From: Paracoccus sp. MA
GTDB taxonomy: Bacteria > Pseudomonadota > Alphaproteobacteria > Rhodobacterales > Rhodobacteraceae
Assembly: GCF_020990385.1 (NCBI RefSeq)
Contig: NZ_CP087599.1
Coordinates: 434,001-498,000, forward strand
Direction: 5' to 3'
DNA length: 64,000 bases
This document shows, piece after piece, positions 20,936-39,407 of the stretch. The notes beneath the pieces were generated by a model that saw only the letters and a program-made list of their open reading frames with translations, had not been told where the DNA came from and made no database searches. The position numbers were made by a program, and so were the translations under genes. Within the stretch, counting starts at the first letter, position 1; each line of letters opens with the position of its first letter.

Positions 20936-21949
20936 ATGAACCCACTGACGATTGGCCGCCGCGATTTCCTTCGCGGTGCTGCCGCATCCGCCGCGACACT
21001 GGCGCTTGCCAGTCCGGCTGCGGCGGCTGGAACGGCATTCCGTTTTATCACTCCATTCTCATTCTCCCTGGCTTTCGCCCCCGTGCTCTATGCCGAAGCT
21101 GCGGGCTACTATGCGGAAAATGGTCTGGATGTGGCGATAGAAGCGGCGCAAGGGGCGGCGATGGCGGCGCAGATGGTCATCGCGGGACAGATGGATGCAG
21201 GCCGAACCGGGGGCACGAACTATCTCGTCTCGCGCGTCAACAACGATGCGCCGCTGATCTCGATTGCGACCATCGCCCAGATATCGCCGTTTTTCCTGAT
21301 TTCCTCGACGCAAGAGCCGGTGCAGGCCGTGGCCGATCTGAAGGGACGGACGGTTGGCCTTGCCAGCCTTGGCGGCTCGATGGAGGGCACGCTGGATCTT
21401 TTGCTGATCGACAACGGCATCGATCCGAAGGAGGTTCGCAAGGTCAAGGTGGCGGACAACGCGGCCTCATTCGCGCTGATCGAGGCCGGGCGGGCCGGGG
21501 CCTTTGTCGGCAACACCTCGTCGATGATCCTGGCCAGTGCCGCGCGCAGCGATGTGCATGCCATTCCCATGGATGACGGCATGCCCGGACAGGTCTATGT
21601 CGCAAGTCCCGCCGAGATCGAAGCGGCCCCCGAAAAATTCATCGCTTTCCTGAAGGCCACCCATCGATCGGCCCGCGAGATAGCTGCCGCCGAGGATCTG
21701 GGGCCGGTCCTTGAGAAGCTTGTCGGAAAATTCACCATTTCCGGGGCCAGTGATGCGGAACTGGCCAAGCGCGACCTGGAAACCAATGCCCGGAACTGGA
21801 TGGCCAGGGGCCCGGAGAACCTGCTTCGCAACGTGCCCGAGATCTGGGCCCATGCGGTCGAGACCCTGCACCGCGCCGACATGCTGGACGCGGCACCGGA
21901 TCCGACGACGCTTTACACCAATGCTCTGCTGGAAAGGGCGGTGGCGTGA
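20936..21949 (+). CDS. ABC transporter substrate-binding protein, NMT1/TauA-like
   Basis: A 337-aa periplasmic binding protein of the NMT1/THI5/SsuA group. The N terminus has a twin-arginine motif GRRDFLRG (residues 7-14) followed by a hydrophobic stretch ending ASPAAAA, so it is probably exported folded by Tat. Later comes the domain-typical ADLKGRTVGLASLGG. It forms a complete importer with the next two genes. Members of this group bind aromatic acids, sulfonates, pyrimidine precursors or phthalate-like compounds. The neighbouring Rieske and VOC genes suggest an aromatic ligand; this is inference. Confidence 0.88.
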   Translation: MNPLTIGRRDFLRGAAASAATLALASPAAAAGTAFRFITPFSFSLAFAPVLYAEAAGYYAENGLDVAIEAAQGAAMAAQMVIAGQMDAGRTGGTNYLVSRVNNDAPLISIATIAQISPFFLISSTQEPVQAVADLKGRTVGLASLGGSMEGTLDLLLIDNGIDPKEVRKVKVADNAASFALIEAGRAGAFVGNTSSMILASAARSDVHAIPMDDGMPGQVYVASPAEIEAAPEKFIAFLKATHRSAREIAAAEDLGPVLEKLVGKFTISGASDAELAKRDLETNARNWMARGPENLLRNVPEIWAHAVETLHRADMLDAAPDPTTLYTNALLERAVA

Positions 21950-22755
21950 TGGCTTTCGACCAGTCGCCGCAAGGCCCCGACATCGTTGTTTCCGGACTGG
22001 ACAAGGTATTTGGCCATGGGGAAACCGCGGTCCATGCCATCACCAACGCCAATCTCAGCCTCGAAAGGGGCGAGTTCCTGTCGCTTCTGGGCCCTTCGGG
22101 CTGCGGCAAAACCACGCTTCTGCGTATCATCGCGGGGCTTGAGGCACCGACCTCGGGCAATGTGCAGATCCGCGATCGGCAGGTCTGGGCGTCCGGCCGG
22201 CGTTCGAACGGAGCGACACGACCGGTTTCGATGATGTTCCAGGAGGCGCGGCTGTTTCCCTGGTATACCGTCGCCGAGAATGTTGCCCTGCCGCTGCGCA
22301 TCGCGGGCATCGGCCGGGCCGAGCGCATGGCGCGGGCGCGGCGGATCTGCGAGACCGTCGGCCTTGGCGCCTTCGTCGATCATCGGCCGGGCCAGCTGTC
22401 CGGCGGCATGCGGCAGCGCGCCTCGCTGGCCAGGGCGCTGGTGACCGAGCCGCAGGTGCTGCTGCTGGACGAGCCCTTCGGGGCGCTGGACGCGATGACC
22501 CGCGATACGCTGAACCTGGAACTGATGGAGGTTTGCGCCCGGGCCAAGGTGACGACGATTCTTGTCACCCATTCCATCACCGAGGCGGCTTTCCTGTCCG
22601 ACCGGGTGGCGGTGCTGGCGCCCCGGCCGGCAAGGATCGTGGAAACCATCGAGATGCCGTTTCCCCGGCCCCGGGATCTGGACCTGCAGCGCACGTCCGG
22701 CTTCCAGAACATGGTGGGACGACTGAGGAAGGTGCTGACGGAGGGCGCGGCATGA
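21949..22755 (+). CDS. ABC transporter ATPase (NitT/TauT/SsuB family)
   Basis: A 268-aa single-domain ATPase. Walker A is GPSGCGKT (residues 48-55), the signature LSGGMRQRASLARAL, and Walker B VLLLDEPFGALD with a following THSITEAAFLSD switch. I use the ATG at 21949, which shares one base with the upstream stop; a GTG one codon earlier is also possible. It powers the importer formed with the genes on either side. Confidence 0.93.
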   Translation: MAFDQSPQGPDIVVSGLDKVFGHGETAVHAITNANLSLERGEFLSLLGPSGCGKTTLLRIIAGLEAPTSGNVQIRDRQVWASGRRSNGATRPVSMMFQEARLFPWYTVAENVALPLRIAGIGRAERMARARRICETVGLGAFVDHRPGQLSGGMRQRASLARALVTEPQVLLLDEPFGALDAMTRDTLNLELMEVCARAKVTTILVTHSITEAAFLSDRVAVLAPRPARIVETIEMPFPRPRDLDLQRTSGFQNMVGRLRKVLTEGAA

Positions 22756-23519
22756 AAGAGAAAACCCTGCGTATCGTGCTGCCCGTGATCGCGGTGCTGC
22801 TGTTTCTGATCGGCTGGTCGGCCTATGTCAGGACATCGGAGGTTTCGGCTTTCGTCCTGCCCGCGCCCGAGCAGATCCTGCTGGCCTTGTCCGACATGAT
22901 CGCCGACCCGGATTTGTGGTATCACACCCGCGTCACGATGACCGAGGCGGTGGCCGGGTTCGGCATTGCTGTGGGGCTTGGCATCACGCTGGGCTTCGTG
23001 ATGGCCCGGGTGCCGCCTGTGGAATGGGCGGCCAAGCCCTTCATCGTGCTGATGCAGCTGATCCCGAAAATTGCGCTGGCTCCGCTGTTCGTGCTGTGGT
23101 TCGGGTTCGGACTGGAATCCAAGATCGTGATTGCGGCCGCACTCGCCTTTTTCCCGGTGTTCTCGAACGCGCTGCAGGCGTTCAAGTCGGTCGATCCAGA
23201 AGACCGGGACGTGATGACCATGTTGCAGGCCAATCCCTGGCAACGCTTCGTCATGCTCGACCTGCCCACGGCCTTGCCCGTGGTCCTGACCGGTACCGAG
23301 GTTGCCGTGGTGATGGCGATGATCGGTGCCATCGTGGGCGAGTTCATCGGCGGCAGCGAAGGGCTGGGCTATCTGGCAGTCATGCATTTGCAGAATCTTG
23401 CTGTCCCACAGCTCTTTGCCGTCATCGTGGTGTTGACGCTTGTGGGATTGGCGCTTTACGCGGTGATCTCGCAGTTGCGGCGCTGGCTGACTCCCTGGCA
23501 CGTCTCGGTGATCGGCTGA
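22752..23519 (+). CDS. ABC transporter permease (SsuC/TauC family)
   Basis: A 255-aa BPD_transp_1 permease with about six helices. The EAA coupling loop is near DVMTMLQANPWQRFVMLDLP, and the GEFIGGSEGLGYL segment is typical of nitrate/taurine/sulfonate permeases. The ATG overlaps the ATPase stop (ATGA). Last gene of the first importer operon, ending at a bidirectional hairpin. Confidence 0.93.
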   Translation: MKEKTLRIVLPVIAVLLFLIGWSAYVRTSEVSAFVLPAPEQILLALSDMIADPDLWYHTRVTMTEAVAGFGIAVGLGITLGFVMARVPPVEWAAKPFIVLMQLIPKIALAPLFVLWFGFGLESKIVIAAALAFFPVFSNALQAFKSVDPEDRDVMTMLQANPWQRFVMLDLPTALPVVLTGTEVAVVMAMIGAIVGEFIGGSEGLGYLAVMHLQNLAVPQLFAVIVVLTLVGLALYAVISQLRRWLTPWHVSVIG

Positions 23520-23531
23520 GAAGGAGCTGCC

Positions 23532-23554
23532 CGGCGCGCTATACCTGCGCGCCG
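23532..23554. terminator. Bidirectional hairpin between convergent genes
   Basis: Perfect 8-bp arms CGGCGCGC (23532-23539) and GCGCGCCG (23547-23554) with a 7-base loop sit exactly where the importer operon and the IclR gene converge, covering the IclR stop codon. No long T-run on either side, so termination strength is uncertain. Confidence 0.6.
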
Positions 23555-24357
23555 AGCAGCGAAGACAGGCGTTGTGCAGTGCTGTGCACGCCGTCTGCAA
23601 TTGCCTGGCGGCGGTCGCTGTTCGGCTCGAAGGCGCTTTGCCGGCCGGAGAGGCTGATCGCCGCGACGGGCCGGTTGGAATGGTCCAGGATCACTGCCGC
23701 GCAGGAGCCGATACCTTCCTCATAATTGGCGACCGACCAGGCCAGCCCCTCGGCCCTGTCGGCATCGAGCTGCCTTTCCAGTTGCTCAAAGGTCACCGCC
23801 GTCCGCGAGGTGATCGCCGCCAGCTTCCCGTCTGCCAGGAGATCGCGGACCTCGGCGCGCGGCATATGGGCAAGGATGATCCGGCCCATGACGGTGGCAT
23901 GGGCGGGCAGGCGGCTGCCTTCGCGGATATTGCTGACCAGTTGCACTTCGGGCGTCTCGCGCACCAGAACGATGACATCGGTTCGCGACAGCACGCCCAG
24001 ATGCGCCGAAAGCCCGGTCTCGGCCGCCAGCCGCGCCAGAAGCGGTCGGGCCAGACGCACCACATCGCGCGAGGACAGCATGCTTGCCGTCAGTTCCAGC
24101 AGCCCATAGGACAGGATGTAGCCGCCGCCGTCCTCGTCGCGCTCGATCATGCCTTCGCGTTCCAGCGTATGCAGCAGACGCAGGAGCGTGGTGCGGTTCA
24201 TCTCCAGAGCTGCCGCGGCCTTGGACATGTTCCGGCAGCGATTGCCGGCACTGATATGGCGCAGCAGGCTGAAGGCGCGGCTGACGGGTGGAACCTCATA
24301 GCTGGGATTCGGATCGATGACCGATTCGGTCGCCGGTTTGGCGGTCGAGCGTGGAAT
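23539..24357 (-). CDS. IclR-family transcriptional regulator
   Basis: The frame carries a full IclR protein: a helix-turn-helix with MSKAAAALEMNRTTLLRLLH and a ligand domain with HLGVLSRTDVIVLVRE and HATVMGRIILAH. No ATG, GTG or TTG lies just before the DNA-binding domain. The best placed start is ATT at 24357, five bases after a strong GGGAGG, giving 272 aa. The frame stays open to 24702, but that extension crosses the promoter region and looks non-coding. It is divergent from the importer/Rieske operon and has matching repeats on both sides, so it is the likely regulator of that operon and of itself. Confidence 0.82.
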   Translation of the reverse strand: MPRSTAKPATESVIDPNPSYEVPPVSRAFSLLRHISAGNRCRNMSKAAAALEMNRTTLLRLLHTLEREGMIERDEDGGGYILSYGLLELTASMLSSRDVVRLARPLLARLAAETGLSAHLGVLSRTDVIVLVRETPEVQLVSNIREGSRLPAHATVMGRIILAHMPRAEVRDLLADGKLAAITSRTAVTFEQLERQLDADRAEGLAWSVANYEEGIGSCAAVILDHSNRPVAAISLSGRQSAFEPNSDRRQAIADGVHSTAQRLSSLLGAQV

Positions 24358-24376
24358 GGGAGCCTCCCGGAAAATC

Positions 24377-24403
24377 CATGAACGATATTTTCTATAATGA
24401 ACA
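24377..24403. promoter_or_regulatory. IclR operator half-sites, regulator side
   Basis: ATGAACG at 24378-24384 and ATAATGAACA at 24394-24403 are two direct half-sites about 17 bp apart just upstream of the IclR start region. The same half-site recurs at 24604-24632 on the other side of the divergent region, suggesting autoregulation plus control of the catabolic operon. Confidence 0.5.
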
Positions 24404-24578
24404 ATTCCTGTCTTGCCGCCAAGCCATGTTCTGCCGGTCGGCGGCCTGGATCGCCGCTGATGCGGCAAATCCTTTGTAATCAATCCGATATCGTCAAGCA
24501 CGCCGGCGTCGCCGCATCCCGCCCTCCTGGATCGGATGCCATGAGCGCAAGATGAACGCCGTCCAATGACGAGTTTTG

Positions 24579-24632: not shown

Positions 24633-24688
24633 AAAACACCGGACTTGCCGCCAGGCGACTTGGGCCGGTGGAAAACAGGAGGTTAGAA

Positions 24689-24991
24689 ATGGACGTCTTC
24701 AAGGATCGCCTCTCTCAGCGTGCGCTGGATACCAGCCGCCCCGCGCTTGCCCATCAATGTCAGGGCAGGCCGTTGAGCGACGCCGAGATCGCGCTGAAAG
24801 ACGCGCTGATGGAAGTGTTCGCCGCCGGGACGCATGATTTTACCCGGGTTGCCGCCGAATTGGCCTCGCGCGGGGTTGCGGCTCCGGTCTCGGGCCGCAC
24901 GGACTGGACCGAGGCGCTGCTGCTGCAAGAACTGTCCGCGATCAATGCCGATCTCGACGCTGCCTATCGGGATCACGGCTATGGCGCTTGA
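24689..24991 (+). CDS. Small recombinase-like helix-turn-helix protein
   Basis: A 100-aa protein after a good GGAGG site. The middle, LSDAEIALKDALMEVFAAGTHDFTRVAAELASRGV, reads as a helix-turn-helix with the spacing of resolvase C-terminal domains, followed by TDWTEALLLQELSAINADLD. Similar short proteins are found beside aromatic Rieske and ABC gene sets and named recombinase-like HTH proteins. It has no catalytic recombinase domain. It overlaps the ATPase gene by 11 bp, so it belongs to the operon; function unknown, perhaps regulatory. Confidence 0.7.
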   Translation: MDVFKDRLSQRALDTSRPALAHQCQGRPLSDAEIALKDALMEVFAAGTHDFTRVAAELASRGVAAPVSGRTDWTEALLLQELSAINADLDAAYRDHGYGA

Positions 24992-25754
24992 GTTCCGCCA
25001 TGTGACCAAGCGTTTCCCGACCAAGACGGGCAAGGAAGTCACCGCAGTCCAGGACGTGACCTTTACCGTCAACCAGGGGGAGTTCGTTTCGGTGGTCGGG
25101 CCCTCGGGCTGCGGCAAATCGACCATCCTCAGCATGACCGCCGGCCTTTATGGCCCGACCGAGGGCGAGGTTCTGGTTTCGGGCGAGCGGGTGAACGGGC
25201 CCAACCCCCATGTCGGCTTCATGCTGCAAAAGGACTTGCTTTTGCCTTGGCGAGACATTGTCTCGAACGTCGAATTCGGTCTGGAATCGCGCGGCGTCGA
25301 CAAGCATGCCCGCCGCACGCGCGCCATGCAGGAACTGGTGCATTGCCATCTGGAGGGCTTCGAGCACCATTACCCCTATCAGCTGTCGGGCGGCATGCGG
25401 CAGCGCGCGGCACTGGCGCGCACGCTGGCCATCGACCCCGAGATCATTCTTCTGGACGAGCCGTTCTCGGCCCTGGACGCTCAGACCAAGCTGCTGATCC
25501 AGAACAGCTTCGCCAAGGTCATCGCCGAGCAGCGCAAGACCACGCTGCTGATCACCCATGACCTGGCCGAGGCGGTGCTGATGTCGGATCGCATCCTGGT
25601 CCTGTCCGAGCGCCCCGGCAGCGTCCTCGCGGAAATCCCGGTCGACCTGCCGCATCGCGACGAGCCGCTGAAGCGCAGCACGCTGAAAGAGGTCGGCGAC
25701 TATGCCGCGCAGATCTTCACGCTGCTGAAACTGGAAGAGAAAGCCGTCGCCTGA
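24981..25754 (+). CDS. ABC transporter ATPase (NitT/TauT family), second importer
   Basis: A 257-aa ATPase. Walker A is GPSGCGKST (residues 40-48), the signature LSGGMRQRAALARTL, Walker B IILLDEPFSALD, and the switch LLITHDLAEAV. It starts inside the end of the small HTH gene. It drives the second importer of the island with the next two genes. Confidence 0.93.
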   Translation: MALEFRHVTKRFPTKTGKEVTAVQDVTFTVNQGEFVSVVGPSGCGKSTILSMTAGLYGPTEGEVLVSGERVNGPNPHVGFMLQKDLLLPWRDIVSNVEFGLESRGVDKHARRTRAMQELVHCHLEGFEHHYPYQLSGGMRQRAALARTLAIDPEIILLDEPFSALDAQTKLLIQNSFAKVIAEQRKTTLLITHDLAEAVLMSDRILVLSERPGSVLAEIPVDLPHRDEPLKRSTLKEVGDYAAQIFTLLKLEEKAVA

Positions 25755-25768
25755 TGAGGGGGAATGCC

Positions 25769-26743
25769 ATGAAATCAGTCTTTTTCTCGGCAGCCTTTGC
25801 TGTCTCGACCCTGGTTTCCGCCGCTGCGCTTCAGGCGCAGCAGGCCGTGACCTATCTTTTTCCCGGCCCCGATTTTCTGCCGGCCTTCGCGCCCTTCCAG
25901 CTTGCCAAGGGCAAGGGCTATTTCGAGGAGGCCGGGCTGGACGTGACCTTCCGCGTCGGCAAGGGCGGCGCGGATGTGGCCACGCAGGTCGCCGTCGGCA
26001 ATGCCGATCTGGGCGGCGGCATCGGCGACACGCCGATCGTGGTGCGTCCCAACGGGCTGGACGTAAAGGGGGTGGCGCTGCTGGGCGGGCATGGCCTGAC
26101 GCAGCTCGCCTGGCGCAAGGACAGCGGCATCGGCGGGCCCGAGGCGTTCAAGGGCAAGCGCATCGGGGTGCTGTCCTATCAGGACACCACCTATTATAAC
26201 CTGCTGGGCGCGCTGGCTTCGGTCGGACTGACCAAGGACGACGTGCAGATCCAGTCGGTGGGGCCGGGCGGGGTGATCCAGCTGACCATCGCCGGCGAGC
26301 TGGACGGCATGTCCGGCGTTCCGGAATGGATCGCTGCCGTCGAGGCTGCCGGCGTCGAGATGGAGCAGGTTCCCGTCGAGACGATCTTCCCCGCCATGGC
26401 GCAGGCCATCATCGCCTCGGATCGCACCATTGCCGAAAAGCCCGAGATGGTCGGCAGTTTCGTCAACGCCGTCCTGCGCGCGATCCGTGACATCGAGGCC
26501 GATCCCGCCAAGGCGGCCGCAGACTATGTCGGTTTCGTGCCGCAGCACGCCGGCAAGGAGGCGGAAGTCGAGGCGATCCTGCGCGAATACGCGACCAAGG
26601 TCTATCCGGCGCAGGAAGGCCTGCCGCTGGGCGGCTTCGACCCCGAACGCCTGACCGCCGTGCAGACGTTCTATGTCGATCACGGCATCGTCCAGACCGC
26701 CGTGCCTGTCGAGGATCTTTATACCAACGAGTTCGTCAGATGA
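25769..26743 (+). CDS. ABC transporter substrate-binding protein, second importer
   Basis: A 324-aa NMT1/TauA-like binding protein with a Sec signal (FFSAAFAVSTLVSAAALQAQ). The FEEAGLDVTFRVGKGGADVA and AFKGKRIGVLSYQDTTYYN segments are typical of the group. The ATG at 25769 is preferred over 25754 because AGGGGG lies six bases upstream. Unlike the 20936 paralogue it uses Sec, not Tat. Probably binds the catabolic substrate or a related compound. Confidence 0.9.
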   Translation: MKSVFFSAAFAVSTLVSAAALQAQQAVTYLFPGPDFLPAFAPFQLAKGKGYFEEAGLDVTFRVGKGGADVATQVAVGNADLGGGIGDTPIVVRPNGLDVKGVALLGGHGLTQLAWRKDSGIGGPEAFKGKRIGVLSYQDTTYYNLLGALASVGLTKDDVQIQSVGPGGVIQLTIAGELDGMSGVPEWIAAVEAAGVEMEQVPVETIFPAMAQAIIASDRTIAEKPEMVGSFVNAVLRAIRDIEADPAKAAADYVGFVPQHAGKEAEVEAILREYATKVYPAQEGLPLGGFDPERLTAVQTFYVDHGIVQTAVPVEDLYTNEFVR

Positions 26744-27579
26744 CCGATGCGACACATGACACCCGCCCTGCGGCGCGACTGGCCGGCCGCATCTCCCAGG
26801 CGACCTATGCCGTGATCGAAAAGCGGGTCCAGACCGCGGTGTCGCTGGCCATATTGGGGCTGGTTCTGCTGGCCTGGCAGTTCCTGCCTCCGGCGCTCGA
26901 CATGCCGCGCTATATCATCCCCACCTTCTCGCAATGCCTGTCCGAACTGCTAAGGATGTACCAGTCCGAGGGGCTTGCAGGGCATACGATCTCTACCGCG
27001 ATCTATACGGTGCTCGGTTTTGCCATCGGCTCGGCGCTCGGAGCGGCGATGGGCTATCTGCTGGGCATGTCGCGCTTTTGGGAAAAGGTGCTCTCGCCTT
27101 ATATCCTGGCGCTGCAGATCGCGCCCAAGGTCGCCTTCGCGCCGCTCTTCATCATGTGGTTCGGCTACAATGCCATGCCCAAGCTGCTGGTGGCGGTGTT
27201 GATCGTGTTCTTCCCGGTGCTGGTCAACGTGCTGCAGGCGATGCGCACCGTGGACCGCGATCTTGTCAACCTGGCCCGCGCCTATTCGCTGAACCGCTGG
27301 CAGATCTTCCGCAAGATCGAGATGCCGTCGACCCTGCCGAACCTGATGGCGGGACTGCGCATCGCCTCGACCCTGGCCGTGATCGGCATCACCGTAGGCG
27401 AGCTGGTCGGCGGCAACAGCGGGCTTGGCTACCTGATCGCCTATGGTGGCGGACAGGCCAATGCGGCGATGGTCTTCAATGCGATCATCCTGCTGACCGT
27501 GATCGGTTTCGCGCTCTACCTGGTCCTGGAACGGATCGAGGCGCGGGTATTGCACTACATCCCCAGGGCTCAGGGCTGA
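26740..27579 (+). CDS. ABC transporter permease, second importer
   Basis: A 279-aa BPD_transp_1 permease with about six helices. The coupling loop is in DLVNLARAYSLNRWQIFRKI, and the GELVGGNSGLGYLIAYGGGQ segment is family-typical. ATGA overlap with the binding-protein gene. 46 bp precede the Rieske gene, so uptake and first oxidation are probably on one transcript. Confidence 0.93.
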   Translation: MTDATHDTRPAARLAGRISQATYAVIEKRVQTAVSLAILGLVLLAWQFLPPALDMPRYIIPTFSQCLSELLRMYQSEGLAGHTISTAIYTVLGFAIGSALGAAMGYLLGMSRFWEKVLSPYILALQIAPKVAFAPLFIMWFGYNAMPKLLVAVLIVFFPVLVNVLQAMRTVDRDLVNLARAYSLNRWQIFRKIEMPSTLPNLMAGLRIASTLAVIGITVGELVGGNSGLGYLIAYGGGQANAAMVFNAIILLTVIGFALYLVLERIEARVLHYIPRAQG

Positions 27580-27625
27580 GGCGGTCGCCGCCTCCCTCCA
27601 TCTCACCTCCGAAGGATATTCAGCC

Positions 27626-31189: not shown

Positions 31190-31977
31190 ACCGTTACGAT
31201 TACGAGGGACAGGTCGCCGTCGTGACCGGCGGCTCTTCGGGAATCGGGTTGGCCACGGTGCGGCTGCTGCTGGATTGCGGCGCGCGCGTGGCGCTTTGCG
31301 CCCGCAACGAGGGGCGGCTGGAGGATGTCGCCGCGGTTCTGCGCCGCGATCATGGCGAGGACCGGGTGCTGGCCAGCGCCCTGTCGGTGCTTGAAGCGGA
31401 CGCCGTGACCGGCTTTGCGGCCGAGGTGCAGGACCGTTTCGGCCGTTGCGACCTGCTGGTCAACAATGCCGGGCAGGGCCGGCAATCGACCTTTGCCGAT
31501 ACCTCGGACGAGGAGTGGCGCGCCGAATACGAGCTGAAGATCTTCAGCCAGATCCTGCCGACGCGGGCTTTCCTGCCGATGCTGCGCGAGGCGCGGGGTG
31601 CCATCGTTGCGGTCAATTCGCTGCTGGCCTATCAGCCCGAGCCGCATATGGTCTGCACTTCTTCGGCGCGGGCCGGTGTGCAGAATCTGCTGAAAAGCCT
31701 GTCGGTCGAACTGGCCCCCGAGATACGTGTGAACTCTGTGCTGATGGGGCTGATCAGCTCGGGCCAGTGGACGCGCCGCTTTGCCGAGCGAGCGGACAAA
31801 TCGGTCAGCCGCGAAGAATGGTATGGCTCGCTGGCCGAACGCAAGGGCATCCCCCTCGGCCGGTTGGGCGATCCCGAAGAGGCGGCCCATGCCATCGCCT
31901 TCCTCGGCTCGCGGGGCGCCAGCTACATCACCGGTGCCCAGATCGATGTTTCGGGCGGCCTGTCCCGTTCTATCTGA
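31186..31977 (+). CDS. SDR-fold protein with altered active site
   Basis: A 263-aa protein with an intact nucleotide-binding TGGSSGIGLA (residues 14-23), NNAG at 93-96 and the catalytic-type Ser145. The usual Tyr-x3-Lys is replaced by Thr158-x3-Arg162 (TSSAR). This Tyr/Lys loss marks a distinct SDR subfamily that may work differently, for example as a lyase-like, isomerase-like or binding protein. 4-bp overlap with the VOC gene. Confidence 0.85.
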   Translation: MNRYDYEGQVAVVTGGSSGIGLATVRLLLDCGARVALCARNEGRLEDVAAVLRRDHGEDRVLASALSVLEADAVTGFAAEVQDRFGRCDLLVNNAGQGRQSTFADTSDEEWRAEYELKIFSQILPTRAFLPMLREARGAIVAVNSLLAYQPEPHMVCTSSARAGVQNLLKSLSVELAPEIRVNSVLMGLISSGQWTRRFAERADKSVSREEWYGSLAERKGIPLGRLGDPEEAAHAIAFLGSRGASYITGAQIDVSGGLSRSI

Positions 31978-31990
31978 AGGAACAATCACG

Positions 31991-33664
31991 ATGAAAATGG
32001 ACATCCGCCTTGAGGTGGAAACCGTCGGCGACCTGATCGCCCGCTATCTGGCCGATATCGGCGTCACCACGATCTTCGGGGTCATCTCGATCCATAACAT
32101 GCCGATCCTCGATGCCGTGGCGCGTCAGGACCGCATCCGTTTCGTTCCCGCCCGGGGCGAGGCCGGAGCGATGAACATGGCCGATGCCTATGCCCGGGTC
32201 TCGGGCAGGCTGGGGGTCTGCCTGACCTCGACCGGCACGGCGGCCGGCAATGCTGCCGGTGCACAGGCCGAGGCGCTGACCGCAGGGACGCAACTGCTGC
32301 ATATCACGACGCAGGTAGACCGCGAATTCGCCGACCGCGACCGCGCCGCGATCCATGACGTGCCGCGCCAGCCCAAGATGCTGGAGGGGGTGTCGAAATC
32401 GGTGTTTCGCATGTGGGATGCGCAGGGCGCTGTGGGCACGCTGACCGCGGCCTGCTCGGCGGCTCTGTCGGCGCCCTCGGGTCCGGTCAGCCTGGAGATC
32501 CCGGTCGATGTGCAGCGCAGCCCGGTCGAAGGGTCCGCGCGCGCCTATGCCCCGCTGGTGCAACTGCCCCGCGCCTGCGACGACGCCATTGCCGAGCTTG
32601 CCGAGCGCGTGCGCGCCGCCCGCCGGCCGATGCTGTGGCTGGGCGGCGGCGCGCGCGGCGCCGGCGCGGCCGCGACCGAGCTGGTGCGCCGCGGCTTCGG
32701 CGTCGTCACCTCGACCAATGGCCGCGCGGTGGTGGCCGAGGACGAGCCGGCCTCGCTGGGCGCCTTCAACATGACTCCCGAGGCGGTCGAGCTTTACCGC
32801 AGCTGCGACCTGATGATCGTGGTCGGCTCGCGCCTGCGCGGCAACGAGACGCAGAACAACCGCATGCCGCTGCCCCGGCCGCTGGTGCAAATCGATGCCG
32901 ATGCCGCACAGGGCGGGCGCAACTATCCCGTCGACCAGTTCATCCACGGCGATGCCGCCGACGTGTTGGCCCGGCTGGTGGCGGCGCTTCCCGAAAGGCT
33001 GGATACCGACGAGGGCCTGAAATTCGACATCGCCCGTGTCCGGGCGCAGGCCGAGGGCAGGATGCGCGATGTGCTGGGCCCCTATCGCGTGGTTGCGGAC
33101 GTGCTGAACGAACGGATCGCCGCCGGTCGCCACCCTTGGGTGCGGGACGTGACCATCTCCAACTCGACCTTCGGCAACCGTTATGTCCGTATCGCCGAGC
33201 CGCGCCTGGGCGTGCATGCGCTTGGCGGCGGCATCGGCCAGGGCGTGGCCATGGGCATCGGCGCGGCGCTGGCCTCGGACGGTCCCAAGGCGGTAACGCT
33301 GCTGGGCGACGGCGGCACCATGCTGGGCATCGCCGAGATGATCACCGCGGTCGAGGAGCGCGCGCCGCTGGTCTATGTGCTGATGAACGACCGCGCCTAT
33401 GGCGTGATCCGCAACATCCAGGATGCGCAATACGGCTCGCGCCATCACTACAGCGCGCTGGCGACGCCGGATTTCCGCAGCTTCTGTGCCTCGATCGGCA
33501 TGCCGCATCGCCGGGTGGACGATCTGGCGCAGTTCGAGGCCGCCTTCGACGCCGCGATCGCCGCCGACGGGCCGCAGGTGATCGAGATCGACATGTGTGC
33601 CATCGGCCCCTTCGCCGAGACCTTCGCCGGGCCGCCGGCGGGCGCGGCCGGCAAGACGGAGTAG
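31991..33664 (+). CDS. ThDP-dependent enzyme, acetolactate-synthase-like
   Basis: A 557-aa enzyme with the three-domain ThDP order. Glu57 in ARGEAGAMNMAD is the cofactor-activating glutamate; the middle domain spans about 195-335; the Mg/ThDP motif begins GDGGTM (439-444) and ends at Asn466. Relatives include acetolactate synthase, benzoylformate decarboxylase, oxalyl-CoA decarboxylase and sulfoacetaldehyde acetyltransferase. In this operon it could decarboxylate a 2-oxo acid left after ring cleavage, giving the aldehyde used by the dehydrogenase at 34480. The reaction cannot be assigned from sequence. Confidence 0.9.
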   Translation: MKMDIRLEVETVGDLIARYLADIGVTTIFGVISIHNMPILDAVARQDRIRFVPARGEAGAMNMADAYARVSGRLGVCLTSTGTAAGNAAGAQAEALTAGTQLLHITTQVDREFADRDRAAIHDVPRQPKMLEGVSKSVFRMWDAQGAVGTLTAACSAALSAPSGPVSLEIPVDVQRSPVEGSARAYAPLVQLPRACDDAIAELAERVRAARRPMLWLGGGARGAGAAATELVRRGFGVVTSTNGRAVVAEDEPASLGAFNMTPEAVELYRSCDLMIVVGSRLRGNETQNNRMPLPRPLVQIDADAAQGGRNYPVDQFIHGDAADVLARLVAALPERLDTDEGLKFDIARVRAQAEGRMRDVLGPYRVVADVLNERIAAGRHPWVRDVTISNSTFGNRYVRIAEPRLGVHALGGGIGQGVAMGIGAALASDGPKAVTLLGDGGTMLGIAEMITAVEERAPLVYVLMNDRAYGVIRNIQDAQYGSRHHYSALATPDFRSFCASIGMPHRRVDDLAQFEAAFDAAIAADGPQVIEIDMCAIGPFAETFAGPPAGAAGKTE

Positions 33665-33667
33665 CCC

Positions 33668-34483
33668 ATGCATCTGGGATTGATCGGTTACGGCAGCATC
33701 GGCAACGAACTTCTTGGCCTGATCGAGGGCTTGCCGGTCGAACGCATCACCATCCTGGTGCGCGAGGGGCGCGAGAATGTCGCCCGGGACCGGCTGCTCT
33801 CGGCCCATCCGGGGCTAGAGGGCCGGGCGGCGATCCTCAGCGATGGCGACGCCTTTCTGGTCGCACGGCCCGATTTCGTGATCGAGGCGGCGGGACACGA
33901 AGCAGTCTGCGCAAATGCGGAAAAGGTGCTGGCGGCGGGGATCGATCTGGTCCTGGTCTCGGTGGGTGCGCTGGCGGACGAGGCGCTGCACCGGCGGCTG
34001 CGGGATACGGCGGCACGCAGCGGCGCGCGGCTGATCCTGCCCTCGGGGGCCATCGGCGGCATCGACCTTCTCGCCGCGCTGGCGCCGGCGGGCGATCTGA
34101 AGGTGCGCTATTTCGGCGCCAAGCCGCCGCAGGCCTGGGCCGGCACACCCGCGGCCCAGGCGACCGATCTGGAGGCGCTGGCCCATGCCGAGCAGATCTT
34201 TCACGGCACGGCCCGCGAAGCCGCGACCGCCTATCCCCGCAATGCCAATGTGGCGGCCACGCTGGCGCTGGCGGGCGCCGGCTTCGACGCGACAGAGGTC
34301 ACGCTGACCGCCGACCCTGCCGCGCAGGGCAATTCGCATCGCTACGAGATCGTCTCGCCGCTGGCGACGGTCTCGGTCGAAATCTCGAACCGCGCCACGG
34401 GCAGCAATGCCAGAACCTCGCTTGCGACGGTCTATTCCGTGCTGCGCGAACTGAAAAACCATCTGGGGCCCGTTTCGATATGA
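33668..34483 (+). CDS. Aspartate-dehydrogenase-like oxidoreductase (NadX family)
   Basis: A 271-aa protein with a Rossmann start LGLIGYGSIGNEL, the IEAAGHEAV segment with a conserved His, a PSGAIGGIDLL substrate region and GNSHRYEI, matching the NadX/DUF108 aspartate dehydrogenase fold. True NadX makes iminoaspartate for NAD synthesis, but nadA and nadC are absent here. Within a catabolic operon it may instead act on an amino or imino intermediate, hinting at a nitrogen-containing substrate. That is inference. Confidence 0.85.
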   Translation: MHLGLIGYGSIGNELLGLIEGLPVERITILVREGRENVARDRLLSAHPGLEGRAAILSDGDAFLVARPDFVIEAAGHEAVCANAEKVLAAGIDLVLVSVGALADEALHRRLRDTAARSGARLILPSGAIGGIDLLAALAPAGDLKVRYFGAKPPQAWAGTPAAQATDLEALAHAEQIFHGTAREAATAYPRNANVAATLALAGAGFDATEVTLTADPAAQGNSHRYEIVSPLATVSVEISNRATGSNARTSLATVYSVLRELKNHLGPVSI

Positions 34484-35985
34484 AGGACATGGCGATTGAT
34501 ATGCCCGATGGCCGACTGTTCGTCGGTGGTGAATGGGAAGCCGGCACGGGGCCCGAGATCACTTCGGTTTTTCCTGCCGACGGTTCTGTGAACCGGGTGT
34601 TGCGCGGGGCCTCGCGCCAGGATGGGTTGCGTGCCATTGCCCGCGCCAAGGCTGCCCAGGCCGATCCGGCCTGGCGAGGACTGAAGCCGCATGAACGCGC
34701 GCGATACCTTTACCGGATAGCTGACGGGATCGAAGCCAATGCCGAGCGCATCGCCCGCATCCAGACCCGCGACACCGGCAAGACGCTGCGCGAGACCCGC
34801 ATGCTGGCCGCCTCGGCCGCCGGGACGTTCCGCTATTTCGGCGCGGTGCTGGAAAGCATGGATGATGCGCTGACCGCGCAGCGCGGCGATGCGCTGACCA
34901 TGTCGGTCTGGGAGCCTCTGGGCTTGGTCGCGGCGATCACGCCGTGGAACTCGCCCATCGCCTCGGATGCGCAGAAAGTGGCGCCGGCCTTGGCTGCGGG
35001 CAATGCGGTGTTGCTGAAGCCCGCAAGCTGGTCGCCGCTGGTCGCGCTGGAACTGGCGCGGATCGTCGAGGCGGCCGGGCTGCCGAAGGGATTGTTCTCG
35101 GTCCTGCCCGGCTCGGGGCGCGAGATCGGCACCCTGCTGGTCGAGCATCCCGACATCGCCCGCGTCTCCTTCACCGGCGGCACCGGGACCGGCCGGCAGA
35201 TCGCGCGGCAGGCCGCCGAGAAGCTGATGCCGGTTTCGCTGGAACTGGGCGGCAAGTCGCCGACCATTGTCTTCGCGGATGCCGACCCCGACCTGGCCAT
35301 CGCGGGGATCCTGTTCGGCATCTTTTCCTCGACCGGGCAAAGCTGCATCGCCGGGGCGCGGCTTTTCGTGCAGCGCGCGATCCATGACGCATTCGTCGCC
35401 CGGCTGGTGCGCGCCACCGAAAGGCTGCGCGTCGGCCATCCGCACGACCCGGCGACGCAGGTCTCGTGCCTTGTCCATCCCGATCACCGTGACGCGGTCG
35501 AGGCACATGTGGCCGCCGCGCTGGCCGAGGGGGCCACGCTGCTGACCGGCGGGCGACGGCCGGAAGACCCGGCGCTGGCGGGCGGCGCCTATTACCTGCC
35601 CACGGTCCTGGCGGGAGTGCCCAACAGCGCCCGCATCTGCCGCGAGGAGATCTTCGGCCCGGTGCTGGTGGTGCTGCCCTTCGAGGACGAGTCCGAGGTG
35701 ATCGCCCAGGCCAATGACAGCGATTACGGCCTTGCCTGCGGGATCTGGACCCGCGATTTCCCGAAAGCCTGGCGGGTCGGGCGTGCCATCACCACCGGCA
35801 CGGTCTGGATCAATACCTACAAGCAATTCTCGATCTCGACCCCCTTCGGCGGCGAGAAGGACAGCGGCATGGCCCGCGAGAAGGGCCGCGAGGGCCTGCG
35901 CGCCTATCAGGCGCAGAAATCCGTCTATACCGATCTGACCGGCCGGCCCCATCCCTGGGCGGCGGATGTTCTGGAGGGGCTGTGA
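34480..35985 (+). CDS. Aldehyde dehydrogenase
   Basis: A 501-aa NAD(P)-dependent aldehyde dehydrogenase. Lys180 in VLLKPASW, Glu255 in LELGGKSP and Cys289 in TGQSCIAG are the catalytic residues. It overlaps the NadX-like gene by 4 bp. Likely oxidises the aldehyde from the hydrolase or ThDP step. It is only distantly similar to the dehydrogenase at 680, so it is not a recent duplicate. Confidence 0.92.
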   Translation: MKDMAIDMPDGRLFVGGEWEAGTGPEITSVFPADGSVNRVLRGASRQDGLRAIARAKAAQADPAWRGLKPHERARYLYRIADGIEANAERIARIQTRDTGKTLRETRMLAASAAGTFRYFGAVLESMDDALTAQRGDALTMSVWEPLGLVAAITPWNSPIASDAQKVAPALAAGNAVLLKPASWSPLVALELARIVEAAGLPKGLFSVLPGSGREIGTLLVEHPDIARVSFTGGTGTGRQIARQAAEKLMPVSLELGGKSPTIVFADADPDLAIAGILFGIFSSTGQSCIAGARLFVQRAIHDAFVARLVRATERLRVGHPHDPATQVSCLVHPDHRDAVEAHVAAALAEGATLLTGGRRPEDPALAGGAYYLPTVLAGVPNSARICREEIFGPVLVVLPFEDESEVIAQANDSDYGLACGIWTRDFPKAWRVGRAITTGTVWINTYKQFSISTPFGGEKDSGMAREKGREGLRAYQAQKSVYTDLTGRPHPWAADVLEGL

Positions 35986-35986
35986 C

Positions 35987-37213
35987 ATGCGCAAGGTTGC
36001 CATCATCGGATCGGGGCCCTCGGGCTGCTTCACGGCACAGGGCATCCTGAAGGCCCGGCCCGACTGGACGGTCGATGTCTATGACACGCTGCCCGTGCCC
36101 TATGGGCTGGTGCGCTATGGCGTGGCTGCCGATCACCAGGGCACCAAAGCCATCACCCGCCAGTTCGAGCGCGTCTTTGAACGCCAGGGCGCTCGGTTCT
36201 TCGGCAACGTCACCCTGGGCCGCGACGTCACGCTGGAGGCGCTGCGCGCCGCCTATGATGCCGTTGTCCTGGCCACCGGCCTGTCGGGCGACCGCGACCA
36301 CGGCTTGGGGCGAGCCGAGGGGGTGATCGGCGCCGGAGAACTGACGCGCGCTCTCTACGATCACCCCGATTCCGGCCGGCTGCCGGACGTGAGGGGCGAC
36401 GTGATCGTGCTGGGGAATGGCAACGTTGCCGTCGATGTCCTGCGCCTGCTGGCCAAGACCGAGGCGGAACTGCAGGACAGCGACCTTGGCGCCGAGGCCA
36501 GCGCCTGGCTGGCCGCACAACCCATCGACAGCCTGACCATCCTCGGCCGCTCGCCCGCGACGGCGGCGCGCTTCGATCCGGTGATGATCCGCGAGCTGGG
36601 CAAGTTGCGGGGCGTCAGGATCCGGGTGGCCGACCTGCCTGAGGCCGATGGCGACAGGCTGATCGAGGCGCTGGCCGGGCTGGACGGGCTGGCCACGGGT
36701 TCGCGCCCGGTCACCTTTCGCTTCGGTTGCCGGCCGGCGGAGATCGAAACCGATGCGGCGGGCCGTATCCGGGCGCTGCGGGTCGAAGGACCGCAGGGAT
36801 CCGAGGTTCTGGCCTGCGACACGCTGATCACCGCCATCGGTTTCTGCTGCGACGGCAGTCTCGGCCGCGACCATCTCATGGCCACGGCCGAGGATCCCGA
36901 GTCGGGCCGGATCGCGGCCGGGCTTTATGCCGTGGGCTGGTTCCGCCGCGGCCCGCGCGGCACCATCCCCGAGAACCGCGCCGAGAGCCTGGCCATCGCG
37001 CAACGCATCGTCGAGGACGTCGAGGCCGCCGCGCCCCGCGCAAGGGCCGGCGCGGGGATCCTGCCGGCGGGCCACCAGATCGTGGACTGGACCGGCTGGA
37101 AGCGGCTCGATGCACATGAGCTTGCCGCGGCGATCGCCGGACGTTGTCGCACCAAGATCACCACCCGGGCAGAAATGCTGACGCTCTGCCGCGAAAAAGA
37201 GGACGCACGCTGA
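35987..37213 (+). CDS. FprA/adrenodoxin-reductase-type NADPH reductase
   Basis: A 408-aa FAD protein. The FAD loop is IIGSGPSGCF (residues 5-14) and the NADP loop VLGNGNVAVDVLRLL. It also has TAIGFCCD and the late AVGWFRRGPRGTIPENRAES block, the order of mycobacterial FprA and mitochondrial adrenodoxin reductase. These enzymes pass NADPH electrons to ferredoxins. The next gene encodes a flavodoxin, overlapping by one base, so the pair probably supplies the Rieske oxygenase. Confidence 0.9.
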   Translation: MRKVAIIGSGPSGCFTAQGILKARPDWTVDVYDTLPVPYGLVRYGVAADHQGTKAITRQFERVFERQGARFFGNVTLGRDVTLEALRAAYDAVVLATGLSGDRDHGLGRAEGVIGAGELTRALYDHPDSGRLPDVRGDVIVLGNGNVAVDVLRLLAKTEAELQDSDLGAEASAWLAAQPIDSLTILGRSPATAARFDPVMIRELGKLRGVRIRVADLPEADGDRLIEALAGLDGLATGSRPVTFRFGCRPAEIETDAAGRIRALRVEGPQGSEVLACDTLITAIGFCCDGSLGRDHLMATAEDPESGRIAAGLYAVGWFRRGPRGTIPENRAESLAIAQRIVEDVEAAAPRARAGAGILPAGHQIVDWTGWKRLDAHELAAAIAGRCRTKITTRAEMLTLCREKEDAR

Positions 37214-37677
37214 TGAATATCGTCATTCTCTACGGAACCGAAACCGGCAATGCCGAGATGCTGGCCGAGGATATCCAGGCCGATCTGCAGGCCGATCATG
37301 CGGTCGAGGTCGCCAACCTGTCCGATTTCGATCCTGGCGATTTCGATCCCGCGCGGCTGTATCTCATCGTCTCCTCGACCTATGGCGACGGCGAATTGCC
37401 GGCTTCGGCACAACCTTTCGGGGCGGCGATGCGGGCGCAGGCGCCCGACCTGTCCGGGGTCTCCTTTGGCCTGTTCGGCCTGGGCGATTCCGAATACGAG
37501 ACCTTCAACCAGGGCTCGCGGCACCTGCAGGAACTGATGGAGGGAGCAGGCGCCACGCTTCTGGGCGAAAGGGTGGTTCACGACGCATCCGGCAGCGATC
37601 TTGCCGAGGATCTGGCCTTGCCTTGGGCACGCGAGATCGTGGCGCTGGCCGGGACCCGCCTGGGGGCGGCGGCCTGA
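37213..37677 (+). CDS. Flavodoxin
   Basis: A 154-aa FMN electron carrier. The phosphate loop is YGTETGNAEM (residues 7-16), the first flavin loop SSTYGDGELP and the second GLGDSEYETF. It resembles short-chain flavodoxins and the MioC/sulfite-reductase flavodoxin domain. It starts on the last base of the reductase gene, so the two are made together. The probable role is shuttling electrons from the FprA-like reductase to the oxygenase. Confidence 0.92.
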   Translation: MNIVILYGTETGNAEMLAEDIQADLQADHAVEVANLSDFDPGDFDPARLYLIVSSTYGDGELPASAQPFGAAMRAQAPDLSGVSFGLFGLGDSEYETFNQGSRHLQELMEGAGATLLGERVVHDASGSDLAEDLALPWAREIVALAGTRLGAAA

Positions 37678-38270
37678 TGCGCGCCGCCGAGATCCGCGCC
37701 CGGCTGGAACAGCCCTATGCCTTCGGCGATTGCGTCGATCTGCGCGGCATCATCTGCGAGGACAGGCTGGTTCTGGACGGCTCCGTGCTGACCGGGCTGG
37801 ACTTCACCGGCGCCCGCTTTCCGCTGGGCATCTCGGCGCGAGGCGCGCAGTTCCGCGGCCTGAGCTGGTTTCGGAACATCGAGGCGGACAATGCGGATTT
37901 CACCGGTGCGGTGTTTCACGCCGATGCCCGCTTCGATGCCGCGCGCTTCCGGCGACGGCTGGCGATGCCAGGCGCAGAGCTTCGCGGCGTGCTGCAGTTC
38001 GACAGCGCCGAGTTGTCTGGCGGGGTCGATCTGGCCGGAGCCGTGGGCTATGGCAATTGCTCTTTCGAGCGTGCCAGGCTGGGCGGGATTTCGGATCTGC
38101 ATGGCTCGGAATGGCTGGGCGGGCTCTGGTTGGAAAGCGCGCGCTTCGAGCAGATTCGCAGCGGCGAGATGCTGGTCCATGGTCGGCTGTGGACGCGACG
38201 GGCGCGGCTGGCCGATGGCGCGTTGCCGCCCGAGCACTTCGATATCAGCTTCGGCTATACCTACGCCTGA
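37677..38270 (+). CDS. Pentapeptide-repeat-like protein
   Basis: A 197-aa protein built of imperfect five-residue turns such as LDFTG, ADFTG, ARFDA, AELRG and ARFEQ, which would fold as a right-handed beta helix. It contains an Ala/Leu/Phe ladder but no enzyme motif. The ATG shares a base with the flavodoxin stop, so it is the last gene of the transcript. Function unknown; a scaffold or protein-binding role is possible. Confidence 0.72.
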   Translation: MRAAEIRARLEQPYAFGDCVDLRGIICEDRLVLDGSVLTGLDFTGARFPLGISARGAQFRGLSWFRNIEADNADFTGAVFHADARFDAARFRRRLAMPGAELRGVLQFDSAELSGGVDLAGAVGYGNCSFERARLGGISDLHGSEWLGGLWLESARFEQIRSGEMLVHGRLWTRRARLADGALPPEHFDISFGYTYA

Positions 38271-38364
38271 ACCTGCCCGGGGCGGTTCCCGTGGCGGTCT
38301 GACGGCCTTCGGGTGTCATCGGCCAAGTGGCTGGAACGGTGCGATAATCCTCCCGTCTTATTTG

Positions 38365-38405
38365 CCAGTAAAACGCACGGTATCCAATAAAACGCCCTGC
38401 ACTAT
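38365..38405 (+). promoter_or_regulatory. Direct-repeat operator and promoter of the bicupin gene
   Basis: CCAGTAAAACGC (38365-38376) and CCAATAAAACGC (38384-38395) are 12-bp direct repeats with a 19-bp period, about two helical turns. CACTAT (38400-38405) is a plausible -10 hexamer, so the repeats overlie the -35 and spacer. The reversed motif appears before the 20936 importer. An IclR dimer of dimers would suit such sites. Confidence 0.55.
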
Positions 38406-38459
38406 CCTTCCCTCCATTCGATACCGCGAACCCTTCCAATTTTTCGCAGAGGTAAGACC

Positions 38460-39407
38460 ATGACCCTACAGGATACGAAGTTTCAGACGCTTGCCGACGA
38501 GCTTCGGGCCCATACCGGGCGTTTCACCGACAAGCAGTTCGACTGGAACGCTTTCCCTTCGAATGCCGGCTTCGATGAACTGGCGCGGGCGCAGATGCGC
38601 TATATCGGCGCCGGCGGCTCGCCCAAGGTCGGCGATGCCAGCACGCTCAAGCCAGACAATTTCACTCTCTCGCTGATCTACAAGGAACCCGGTCGCTATG
38701 CCGCCTGCCACAGCCACGAGATCGAGGAGAGCTTCCTGATCATCGACGGGGCGCTGGTCGTCGGCTGGGAAAAGGACGGCGAGGTGGTCGAGGTCAACCT
38801 GGGACCCAAGGACATGATCCTGAACGCCCGCGAGATCGGCCACGGCTTCCGGGTGGACGGCGTCGAGCCGGTGCTGATGTCGATCTCGGTCGATGTCGGC
38901 AAGCCCTTGCCGCCGGTTTATCACTATCACCCCAAGGAGCACGCCCCGGAGCTGGCCCGTGCCTTCGGGGCCGCGCCCGGCAAGACGATGAAGTTCGATC
39001 CCAAGGGCGCGCATCCGCTGCAGCAATTGATGGCGAAATATGTCGTGCGCCATGCCGAGCTGAGGACGCATTGGGAAGAAGCCGGATTCACCCGCAAGAT
39101 CTATTGCGGACCGGGCGGCGTGGAAACCGACACCTGCCGCAAGGAAATGCTCGGAATCCCCTCGCGTGTCGGGATCAAGCCCTTTGTCCGCGATGTCGAG
39201 GACGCCTTCCTGGTACTGGAAGGTACGCTGACCGTGGGCTGGGAAGAGAACGGAGAACAGGTCGAGGTCGAGCTCGGGCCGCGCGATCTGGTCAAGACCC
39301 CCGCCGGCCGTCGGCACTGGTTCCGCAACAACGGCGCGGGTCACGCGACGGTCTGGTATATCGTCGGTTCAGCCTCGCCCGAGACGATCACCTTCCAGGC
39401 GGCCTGA
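38460..39407 (+). CDS. Bicupin protein
   Basis: A 315-aa protein with two cupin barrels. The first has metal ligands His84, His86, Glu90 and His128 (CHSHEIEE and EIGHGF). The second barrel keeps only His286 and has Phe, Arg and Asp where the HxH-E ligands would be, so it probably binds no metal. This one-active-barrel layout is seen in gentisate-dioxygenase-like enzymes and in sugar or keto-acid isomerases. It has its own promoter and shares operators with the first importer, so it likely acts in the same pathway. Confidence 0.85.
   Translation: MTLQDTKFQTLADELRAHTGRFTDKQFDWNAFPSNAGFDELARAQMRYIGAGGSPKVGDASTLKPDNFTLSLIYKEPGRYAACHSHEIEESFLIIDGALVVGWEKDGEVVEVNLGPKDMILNAREIGHGFRVDGVEPVLMSISVDVGKPLPPVYHYHPKEHAPELARAFGAAPGKTMKFDPKGAHPLQQLMAKYVVRHAELRTHWEEAGFTRKIYCGPGGVETDTCRKEMLGIPSRVGIKPFVRDVEDAFLVLEGTLTVGWEENGEQVEVELGPRDLVKTPAGRRHWFRNNGAGHATVWYIVGSASPETITFQAA

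Follow-up and report, generated by a model that had tools for sequence, protein, structure and literature searches.

The 64,000-nucleotide stretch of the Paracoccus sp. MA genome analyzed here (contig NZ_CP087599.1, positions 434,001–498,000; hereafter the window) carries an island of twenty genes at window positions 20936–39407, in a host genome of 4.47 Mb on three contigs. The island consists of a first importer (importer 1), an opposed IclR-family regulator (IclR1), a packed run of 15 genes from HTH62 to PENT (24689–38270) and, after a spacing of 189 bases, the bicupin gene CUP, beyond which lies a second opposed regulator (IclR2). Gene starts were picked from a listing of ribosome sites, and families were assigned with NCBIfam and Pfam. 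The best Pfam match exceeds the Pfam cut-off for each of the 20 island proteins, and the families named in the initial annotation of this DNA are found where it placed them. The features, in window coordinates, are as follows.

SBP1, 20936–21949, plus strand: NMT1/THI5-type substrate-binding protein of importer 1 (PF09084, 112.2 bits)
ATP1, 21949–22755 (alternative start 21946), plus strand: ABC ATPase of importer 1 (PF00005)
PER1, 22752–23519, plus strand: permease of importer 1 (PF00528)
IclR1, 23539–24378, minus strand: IclR-family regulator (PF01614, PF09339; best NCBIfam match PcaR/PcaU/PobR TIGR02431, below cut-off at 150.7 of 284.75 bits)
HTH62, 24689–24991, plus strand: small 100-residue "recombinase-like helix-turn-helix" protein (PF20552, 42.8 bits), in 52 of 54 distinct full loci (defined below)
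ATP2, 24981–25754, plus strand: ABC ATPase of importer 2 (PF00005)
SBP2, 25769–26743 (alternative start 25754), plus strand: NMT1/THI5-like substrate-binding protein of importer 2 (PF09084, 111.7 bits)
PER2, 26740–27579, plus strand: permease of importer 2 (PF00528)
RIE, 27626–28657, plus strand: alpha subunit of a Rieske oxygenase, with no gene for a beta subunit (PF00355, VanA_C); proposed kynurenate 7,8-dioxygenase
SDR1, 28657–29394, plus strand: canonical short-chain dehydrogenase/reductase (SDR; PF13561); proposed dihydrodiol dehydrogenase
ABH, 29394–30248, plus strand: alpha/beta hydrolase (PF00561); proposed hydrolase in second-ring opening
VOC, 30245–31189, plus strand: type I extradiol dioxygenase (TIGR03211 80.9 and TIGR02295 80.0 bits, both below cut-offs); proposed 7,8-dihydroxykynurenate 8,8a-dioxygenase
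SDR2, 31186–31977, plus strand: SDR with Thr158/Arg162 in place of the expected Tyr/Lys (NF005468, 388.1 bits, cut-off 266; 3lf1 Q9HYA2, E 2.7e-83); proposed side-chain enone reductase
TPP, 31991–33664, plus strand: thiamine diphosphate (ThDP) enzyme (NF005470, 781.4 bits, cut-off 495); proposed 2-oxo acid decarboxylase
NADX, 33668–34483, plus strand: L-aspartate dehydrogenase type (NF009828, 223.4 bits, cut-off 177)
ALDH, 34489–35985 (alternative start 34480), plus strand: HpaE/BADH-like aldehyde dehydrogenase (PF00171, 532.1 bits)
FNR, 35987–37213, plus strand: FAD-dependent reductase (PF07992, 36.7 bits; GltD-type matches below cut-off); proposed flavodoxin reductase
FLD, 37213–37677, plus strand: flavodoxin (PF00258, 104 bits); proposed electron carrier to RIE
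PENT, 37677–38270, plus strand: pentapeptide-repeat protein (PF13576, 59.8 bits), in 37 of 54 distinct full loci
CUP, 38460–39407, plus strand: bicupin (PF07883, 48.7 bits); candidate second ring-opening enzyme
IclR2, 39447–40337 (open reading frame 39447–40550), minus strand: IclR-type regulator, 33% identical to the IclR1 copy of L103 and, by synteny, adjoining CUP in many alpha relatives

The 15-gene run is ordered HTH62-ATP2-SBP2-PER2-RIE-SDR1-ABH-VOC-SDR2-TPP-NADX-ALDH-FNR-FLD-PENT. With the chosen starts, overlaps of 1 base join RIE/SDR1, SDR1/ABH, FNR/FLD and FLD/PENT, overlaps of 4 bases join ATP1/PER1, SBP2/PER2, ABH/VOC and VOC/SDR2, and HTH62 overlaps ATP2 by 11 bases; gaps of 13, 3, 1 and 46 bases separate SDR2 from TPP, TPP from NADX, ALDH from FNR and PER2 from RIE, respectively. 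NADX and ALDH are 5 bases apart, or overlap by 4 bases if ALDH starts at 34480. The description of the island as twenty coupled genes holds for the packed run with its 1–4-base overlaps, but not for IclR1, which lies on the minus strand; likewise, the gene list that came with it was correct in the families it named but omitted the PF20552 protein, the pentapeptide-repeat protein and the regulator.

Eight of these enzymes (RIE, SDR1, ABH, VOC, SDR2, TPP, NADX and ALDH) form a core that is a self-contained, compact and patchily distributed module. A genome scan supplied 54 loci, and annotated plasmid records and further genomes added more, giving 97 gathered stretches, of which 88 were mapped and nine dropped (L001–L008, own-genome Rieske matches, and L062, a distant match at 26%). 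Seven of the 88 are flank extensions (L091–L097), 81 carry RIE and 55 carry all eight core enzymes; since L048 and L087 are one locus, this leaves 54 full loci among 80 distinct RIE-bearing loci, a number that does not equal independent events because flanks are cut and several loci come from one genus. As the same eight enzymes stand together in so many RIE-bearing loci, their co-occurrence is not due to chance. Pairwise distances of the eight proteins also correlate (Spearman 0.74–0.95, Pearson 0.68–0.95), a correlation calculated with no unlinked-gene control and to which shared ancestry therefore contributes in part. The module spans two phyla and is found in Rhodobacteraceae, Nitratireductor, Thioglobus, Klebsiella, Acinetobacter, Cupriavidus and Streptomyces; plasmid records that carry it come from Pseudosulfitobacter, Nitratireductor, Acinetobacter baumannii, Klebsiella pneumoniae, Caballeronia, Novosphingobium, Cupriavidus and Streptomyces. 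Among 292 genomes of the order, RIE occurs in 17 (the other 16 being other genera of the same family), and a Klebsiella-type query detects it in 17 of 397 genomes of the phylum. In the family that includes G593, a genome with a Rieske protein 97% identical to a protein named Variov(orax), 25 of 220 genomes have it. Named Paracoccus loci with RIE are L009, L023 and L044, the last from Paracoccus binzhouensis, with a Rieske protein 97% identical to that of the window. In many loci the module is accompanied by IclR regulators and by various types of uptake gene, and no further open reading frame family is a conserved neighbor in more than 5 of the 88 stretches.

Residue conservation was assessed in 18–24 hand-picked sequences per protein, drawn from alpha, beta and gamma lineages and Streptomyces, with at most three gaps per column, and the motifs are interpreted from general knowledge of each family. 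Invariant residues include C61, H63, C80, H83, D170, H173 and H178 in RIE; S139, Y152 and K156 in SDR1; E57 and G439-D440-G441 in TPP; S95 and H247 in ABH; C286 and E252 in ALDH; and H224 in NADX (24 sequences). In VOC the type I extradiol site is complete, with the 2-His-1-Glu set H141, H196 and E247, plus H228 and Y237, invariant in 23 sequences. A Rieske oxygenase, a dihydrodiol-type dehydrogenase and an extradiol dioxygenase are thus encoded together with intact active sites, and SDR2 (although without Tyr/Lys), TPP and ALDH are present by family for the proposed steps of reduction, decarboxylation and oxidation. The families present support the earlier proposal of an aromatic catabolic island working by import, oxygenation, extradiol opening, hydrolysis and aldehyde oxidation.

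The accompanying statement that the set has no characterized counterpart also stands. The best solved-structure scores are 71.6 bits for the Rieske protein, 158.7 bits for the ThDP enzyme and 185.9 bits for VOC, the last to a protein named by superfamily only, and a comparison of these three with solved structures and curated families found no close identity to a characterized pathway. Foldseek relatives of RIE are GxtA/SxtT and the phthalate, isophthalate, dicamba and carbazole oxygenases, all at about 20% identity; the last four, which are beta-less, share the fold and Rieske/VanA_C domains of RIE but use electron partners other than those of the island. The presence of saxitoxin-tailoring GxtA/SxtT among the nearest structural relatives, along with the atypical SDR2, would suit a non-aromatic or biosynthetic substrate, as in secondary-metabolite tailoring, with the Rieske and VOC proteins in unusual roles. 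We consider this very improbable, given the complete extradiol site and the varied uptake genes and IclR regulators that accompany the module. SDR2 matches the SDR Q9HYA2 (3lf1/3lf2), which we take to be a P. aeruginosa protein, and the operons PA3498–PA3503 and PA3504–PA3514 are presumably the PAO1 copy of the module. The available part of a 2025 paper describes these operons as uncharacterized and as absent or very rare in other isolates.

The exception to this lack of characterized relatives is NadX, and it provides the strongest support for our interpretation of the substrate. Window NADX scores above the cut-off of the subfamily model NF009828, with the other seven NadX models below theirs (e.g. 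NF009827, 208.8 of 226), and is 38% identical to the NadX of the Klebsiella pneumoniae cluster (L066, 20168–20932). This Klebsiella ortholog, a 254-residue protein that starts MKKVMLIGY and ends CRELA, agrees in length and in both primer-encoded ends with KpnAspDH, a characterized L-aspartate dehydrogenase, as given in the accessible portion of PMC5554190. According to the same portion, purified KpnAspDH is specific for oxaloacetate/L-aspartate (k_cat 69–78 per second), with activities of 3.9% on pyruvate, 3.5% on 2-ketoglutarate, 5.5% on L-glutamate and less than 1% on L-alanine, and it was studied together with DelAspDH for aspartate production, unlike the catabolic role proposed here.

With an aspartate dehydrogenase in the core, breakdown of the substrate would be expected to set free a four-carbon imine or amino acid, N-C(COOH)-C-C(=O), which, by chemical argument, the pyridine half of kynurenate would supply. 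Monocyclic catechol precursors were rejected by argument, as they leave NadX unexplained. The initial annotation saw instead an ordinary meta-cleavage island for a mono- or polycyclic aromatic, in which NadX would merely serve nitrogen balance. The Rieske, SDR, extradiol, hydrolase and HpaE-like ALDH proteins are the usual families of such islands, and the substrate evidence for this island is indirect only; however, NadX and the 2-oxo-acid-type TPP belong to the core and are kept with it even in the Streptomyces locus (L070), an NCBIfam scan of the island detected no set of hydratase and aldolase genes (a DHDPS-like gene does occur in the relative L139), and NicC-like and RidA genes lie near some copies. 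We regard an ordinary meta-cleavage island as decidedly unlikely.

The classical kynurenate route runs through 7,8-dioxygenation, dehydrogenation, extradiol cleavage, side-chain reduction, 2-oxo acid decarboxylation and aldehyde oxidation. This is the kynurenate 7,8-dihydroxylation pathway of pseudomonads (EC 1.14.99.2, 1.3.1.18 and 1.13.11.10), reportedly established by the Hayaishi group in 1961–63 (Horibata in 1961, Taniuchi and Hayaishi in 1963), and the predicted enzyme types of the island match its steps one by one. We propose, with a probability of roughly 0.55, that the products of the island import and break down kynurenate or a closely similar 4-hydroxyquinoline-2-carboxylate (e.g. 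xanthurenate), a reading in which substrate, step order and roles are inferred from the observed gene content, conserved catalytic residues, module conservation and NadX match. We are surer of the general shape, an N-heteroaromatic carboxylate whose breakdown ends in aspartate, than of kynurenate as the specific compound. The suggestion that the substrate might be new was right in its caution, but the substrate is probably long-known kynurenate, and we are likely dealing with a known pathway without known genes. In the literature searched, from which subscription journals are mostly missing and which is therefore weak evidence of novelty, we found no gene assignment for kynurenate degradation and no paper on the family combination of the cluster or on the PF20552 name.

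In the proposed pathway, the NMT1-type importers would take up the substrate, and electrons passing from NAD(P)H through FNR and flavodoxin to RIE would drive 7,8-dioxygenation. SDR1 would yield 7,8-dihydroxykynurenate, which VOC would cut between positions 8 and 8a to give 5-(3-carboxy-3-oxopropenyl)-4,6-dihydroxypicolinate. SDR2 would then reduce the side chain, TPP would decarboxylate it, and ALDH would oxidize it to 5-(2-carboxyethyl)-4,6-dihydroxypicolinate. CUP and/or ABH may split the remaining pyridone ring, either oxygenatively (C9H9NO6 + O2 + H2O to 2-oxoglutarate and iminoaspartate) or hydrolytically (C9H9NO6 + 2 H2O to glutarate and iminoaspartate), both of which balance by hand arithmetic. 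Either split would leave N1-C2(COOH)-C3-C4 as iminoaspartate, for NADX to reduce to L-aspartate. The available part of a 2024 review reports that certain pseudomonads convert kynurenate to glutamate, alanine and organic acids, and the first two products fit 2-oxoglutarate and aspartate.

The electron supply to the oxygenase differs among the full loci. FNR and flavodoxin are present in 37 of the 54, a Rieske-type ferredoxin with an HcaD-like reductase in six, an FAD/2Fe-2S reductase that we term VanB-type in four, and the HcaD-like reductase alone in one; the remaining six have no redox pair in view, four of them being marine gamma loci (L055, L056, L058 and L059, two named Thioglobus) and two ending at contig ends (L022 and L052). 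The window cluster has FNR and flavodoxin and no VanB-type FAD/FMN and 2Fe-2S reductase, and NCBIfam and Pfam scans detected no Rieske-type ferredoxin among the island genes. As three kinds of electron chain are found with one and the same oxygenase, the most economical explanation is that flavodoxin takes the place of ferredoxin, and on this sequence evidence it seems to be the donor to the Rieske oxygenase in the alpha group.

The cupins show a similar exchange. A single cupin of about 180 residues and the bicupin of about 315 residues are homologous, both with an HxHxxEE site; 30 full loci have the bicupin, 20 the single cupin, none both and four neither. The single cupin stands in for the bicupin in other clades, and the cupin is probably part of the pathway. 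Five models of CUP range in pLDDT from 85.6 to 48.4, and as the fold search returned generic bicupins only (e.g. oxalate decarboxylase, quercetin 2,4-dioxygenase and salicylate 1,2-dioxygenase), we leave its function unassigned.

Accessory genes near the module bear on the substrate; the NicC-like hydroxylases, the RidA neighbors of a few loci and a tryptophan dioxygenase gene beside one cluster (all described below) speak for kynurenate, though more weakly than NadX does. An FMO1-like flavoprotein gene is found in 28 of the 54 full loci, in 27 at 56% identity or more and weakly in L042 at 42%. The FMO1 of L077 is closest to 6-hydroxynicotinate 3-monooxygenase (NicC, E 6.2e-85), its nearest solved relative, followed by other decarboxylating hydroxylases; the best NCBIfam match of FMO1, 3-hydroxybenzoate 6-monooxygenase, is below cut-off. 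Close sulfatase and TRAP genes accompany marine gamma loci and a Roseobacter subtype; among full loci a close sulfatase is restricted to L055, L056, L058 and L059, with matches in L039, L048/L087 and L061 being generic (27–34%). In Novosphingobium a GH3 gene lies 4 bases before TPP, along with TonB genes. Xanthurenate 8-sulfate and 8-glucoside are natural compounds, which the sulfatase and GH3 genes would suit. These FMO1-like, sulfatase, TRAP and GH3 genes, by which clades seem to feed in conjugated or differently hydroxylated substrates, favor some other N-heteroaromatic carboxylate as the substrate of the module, be it xanthurenate, a further hydroxyquinoline carboxylate, quinaldate or a conjugate, with kynurenate at most a side substrate. 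However, RIE and SDR1 are found beside front-end genes too (L055, L088), where a C8-hydroxylated substrate would not obviously need them, and quinaldate was rejected by chemical argument, as it has no 4-oxygen, which iminoaspartate release requires. We consider such a different substrate unlikely.

Other neighbors are rarer. RidA genes adjoin RIE in L125, L126, L127 and L136 (4 of 19 loci of one set) and lie nearby in L085 and L086, and the 432-residue P. aeruginosa Rieske protein P0228 has a C-terminal RidA-type PF01042 stretch, either a true fusion or a fused frame. A family of 107–110-residue proteins travels with RidA near RIE (L085 11121–11453, L126 10841–11164, L127 8602–8928 and L136 10828–11160), and the one member scanned had no NCBIfam match. 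A naphthalene-like aldolase branch was considered and dropped, as a DHDPS-like gene is present in one locus only (L139, 8162–9052, in the G593 family); this gene, by eye of the DHDPS/aldolase family, lies between FMO1 and RIE and could encode a hydratase-aldolase acting on the extradiol product. In G818 the genome's sole tryptophan 2,3-dioxygenase (TDO) gene ends 2 bp from the last gene of the cluster, on the opposite strand, and in G009 TDO and, by eye, kynureninase genes lie about 9–10 kb from ABH. By counts that ignore kinship, TDO occurs in 40 of 50 cluster genomes versus 128 of 397 in the phylum sample.

Several points weigh against the kynurenate assignment, which is drawn from indirect evidence for every copy of the module. 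SDR2 has invariant T158 and R162 where Tyr and Lys are expected, in a motif register read by hand. Given this unusual site, the functionally unassigned HTH62 and PENT, and the conjugate-related subtypes, other quinoline carboxylates keep a place among the candidate substrates; to judge by the conjugate-related genes, the natural substrate may vary from clade to clade. The NicC-like FMO1 is absent from the window island, its best own-genome match being 39% identical and on another contig. RidA is present in only two of the 54 full loci, at 32% identity and not adjoining RIE. TDO adjoins the cluster in one of 50 cluster genomes, which may be luck given that 40 of the 50 carry TDO, and no TDO was found in the window's own genome, so that the substrate would come from outside, as the importers suggest. 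Finally, A. baumannii A1S_0956–0958, taken as part of the module by annotation and gene order, are reported in the available part of the source as up 2.2- to 2.4-fold on mucin, which is uninformative on kynurenate.

Both importers called in the initial annotation are present, but importer 1 is accessory, as it lies near the module in only 8 of the 54 full loci. In Paracoccus pantotrophus, pPAN3 retains importer 1 together with IclR1 (L103, 19890–23519) at 98.0% identity over window 20825–24454, with SBP1 in two frames and, by eye, an IS3-like fragment and MFS and PcaD-like genes on its flanks. The 43.5 kb pPAN3 stretch has no match to RIE, TPP or other core enzymes, and the copy may be a remnant or a partial copy. 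Elsewhere in the window, genes resembling L-rhamnose uptake and catabolism (16457–20476; two ABC permeases, RhaM-like and rhamnulokinase-like, named by eye) precede a 128-residue IclR-type reading frame that is truncated (20090–20476, minus strand). Just past IclR2 lies an NCS2-type uracil/xanthine permease gene (40806–42284, by eye), a homolog of which (38% identity) is found beyond TDO in the G818 region (L139, 15714–17207). An Rfam scan of the window gave no family above the gathering score. Among the relatives, the module was unexpected in Candidatus Thioglobus and related marine gamma proteobacteria (L055 4446–8912, L056–L059), where TRAP transporter genes and a sulfatase occur with it, and a SIR2-family protein gene lies on the opposite strand in the Novosphingobium resinovorum cluster region (L068, 11378–12217).

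More tentatively, and at somewhat less than even odds, we hypothesize that bacterial kynurenate/xanthurenate catabolism has its hitherto missing genes in this module. It would be a horizontally mobile unit, present in bacteria as different as marine Thioglobus, Roseobacters, Klebsiella, Acinetobacter and Streptomyces, that leads to L-aspartate through a dedicated aspartate dehydrogenase; its redox partners would be interchangeable, among them a flavodoxin that feeds a Rieske oxygenase, and its front ends would differ by clade to admit sulfated or glycosylated conjugates. Kynurenate has signaling roles. It is also a tryptophan product excreted in human urine and made or degraded by bacteria, according to the available part of a review. 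If our reading is correct, three enzymes known since the early 1960s would gain genes, and the purified mesophilic aspartate dehydrogenases would gain a physiological role. A flavodoxin-fed Rieske oxygenase would widen the known electron-transfer options of this enzyme class, and the genomes of soil, sea and host-associated bacteria would become readable for kynurenate removal.

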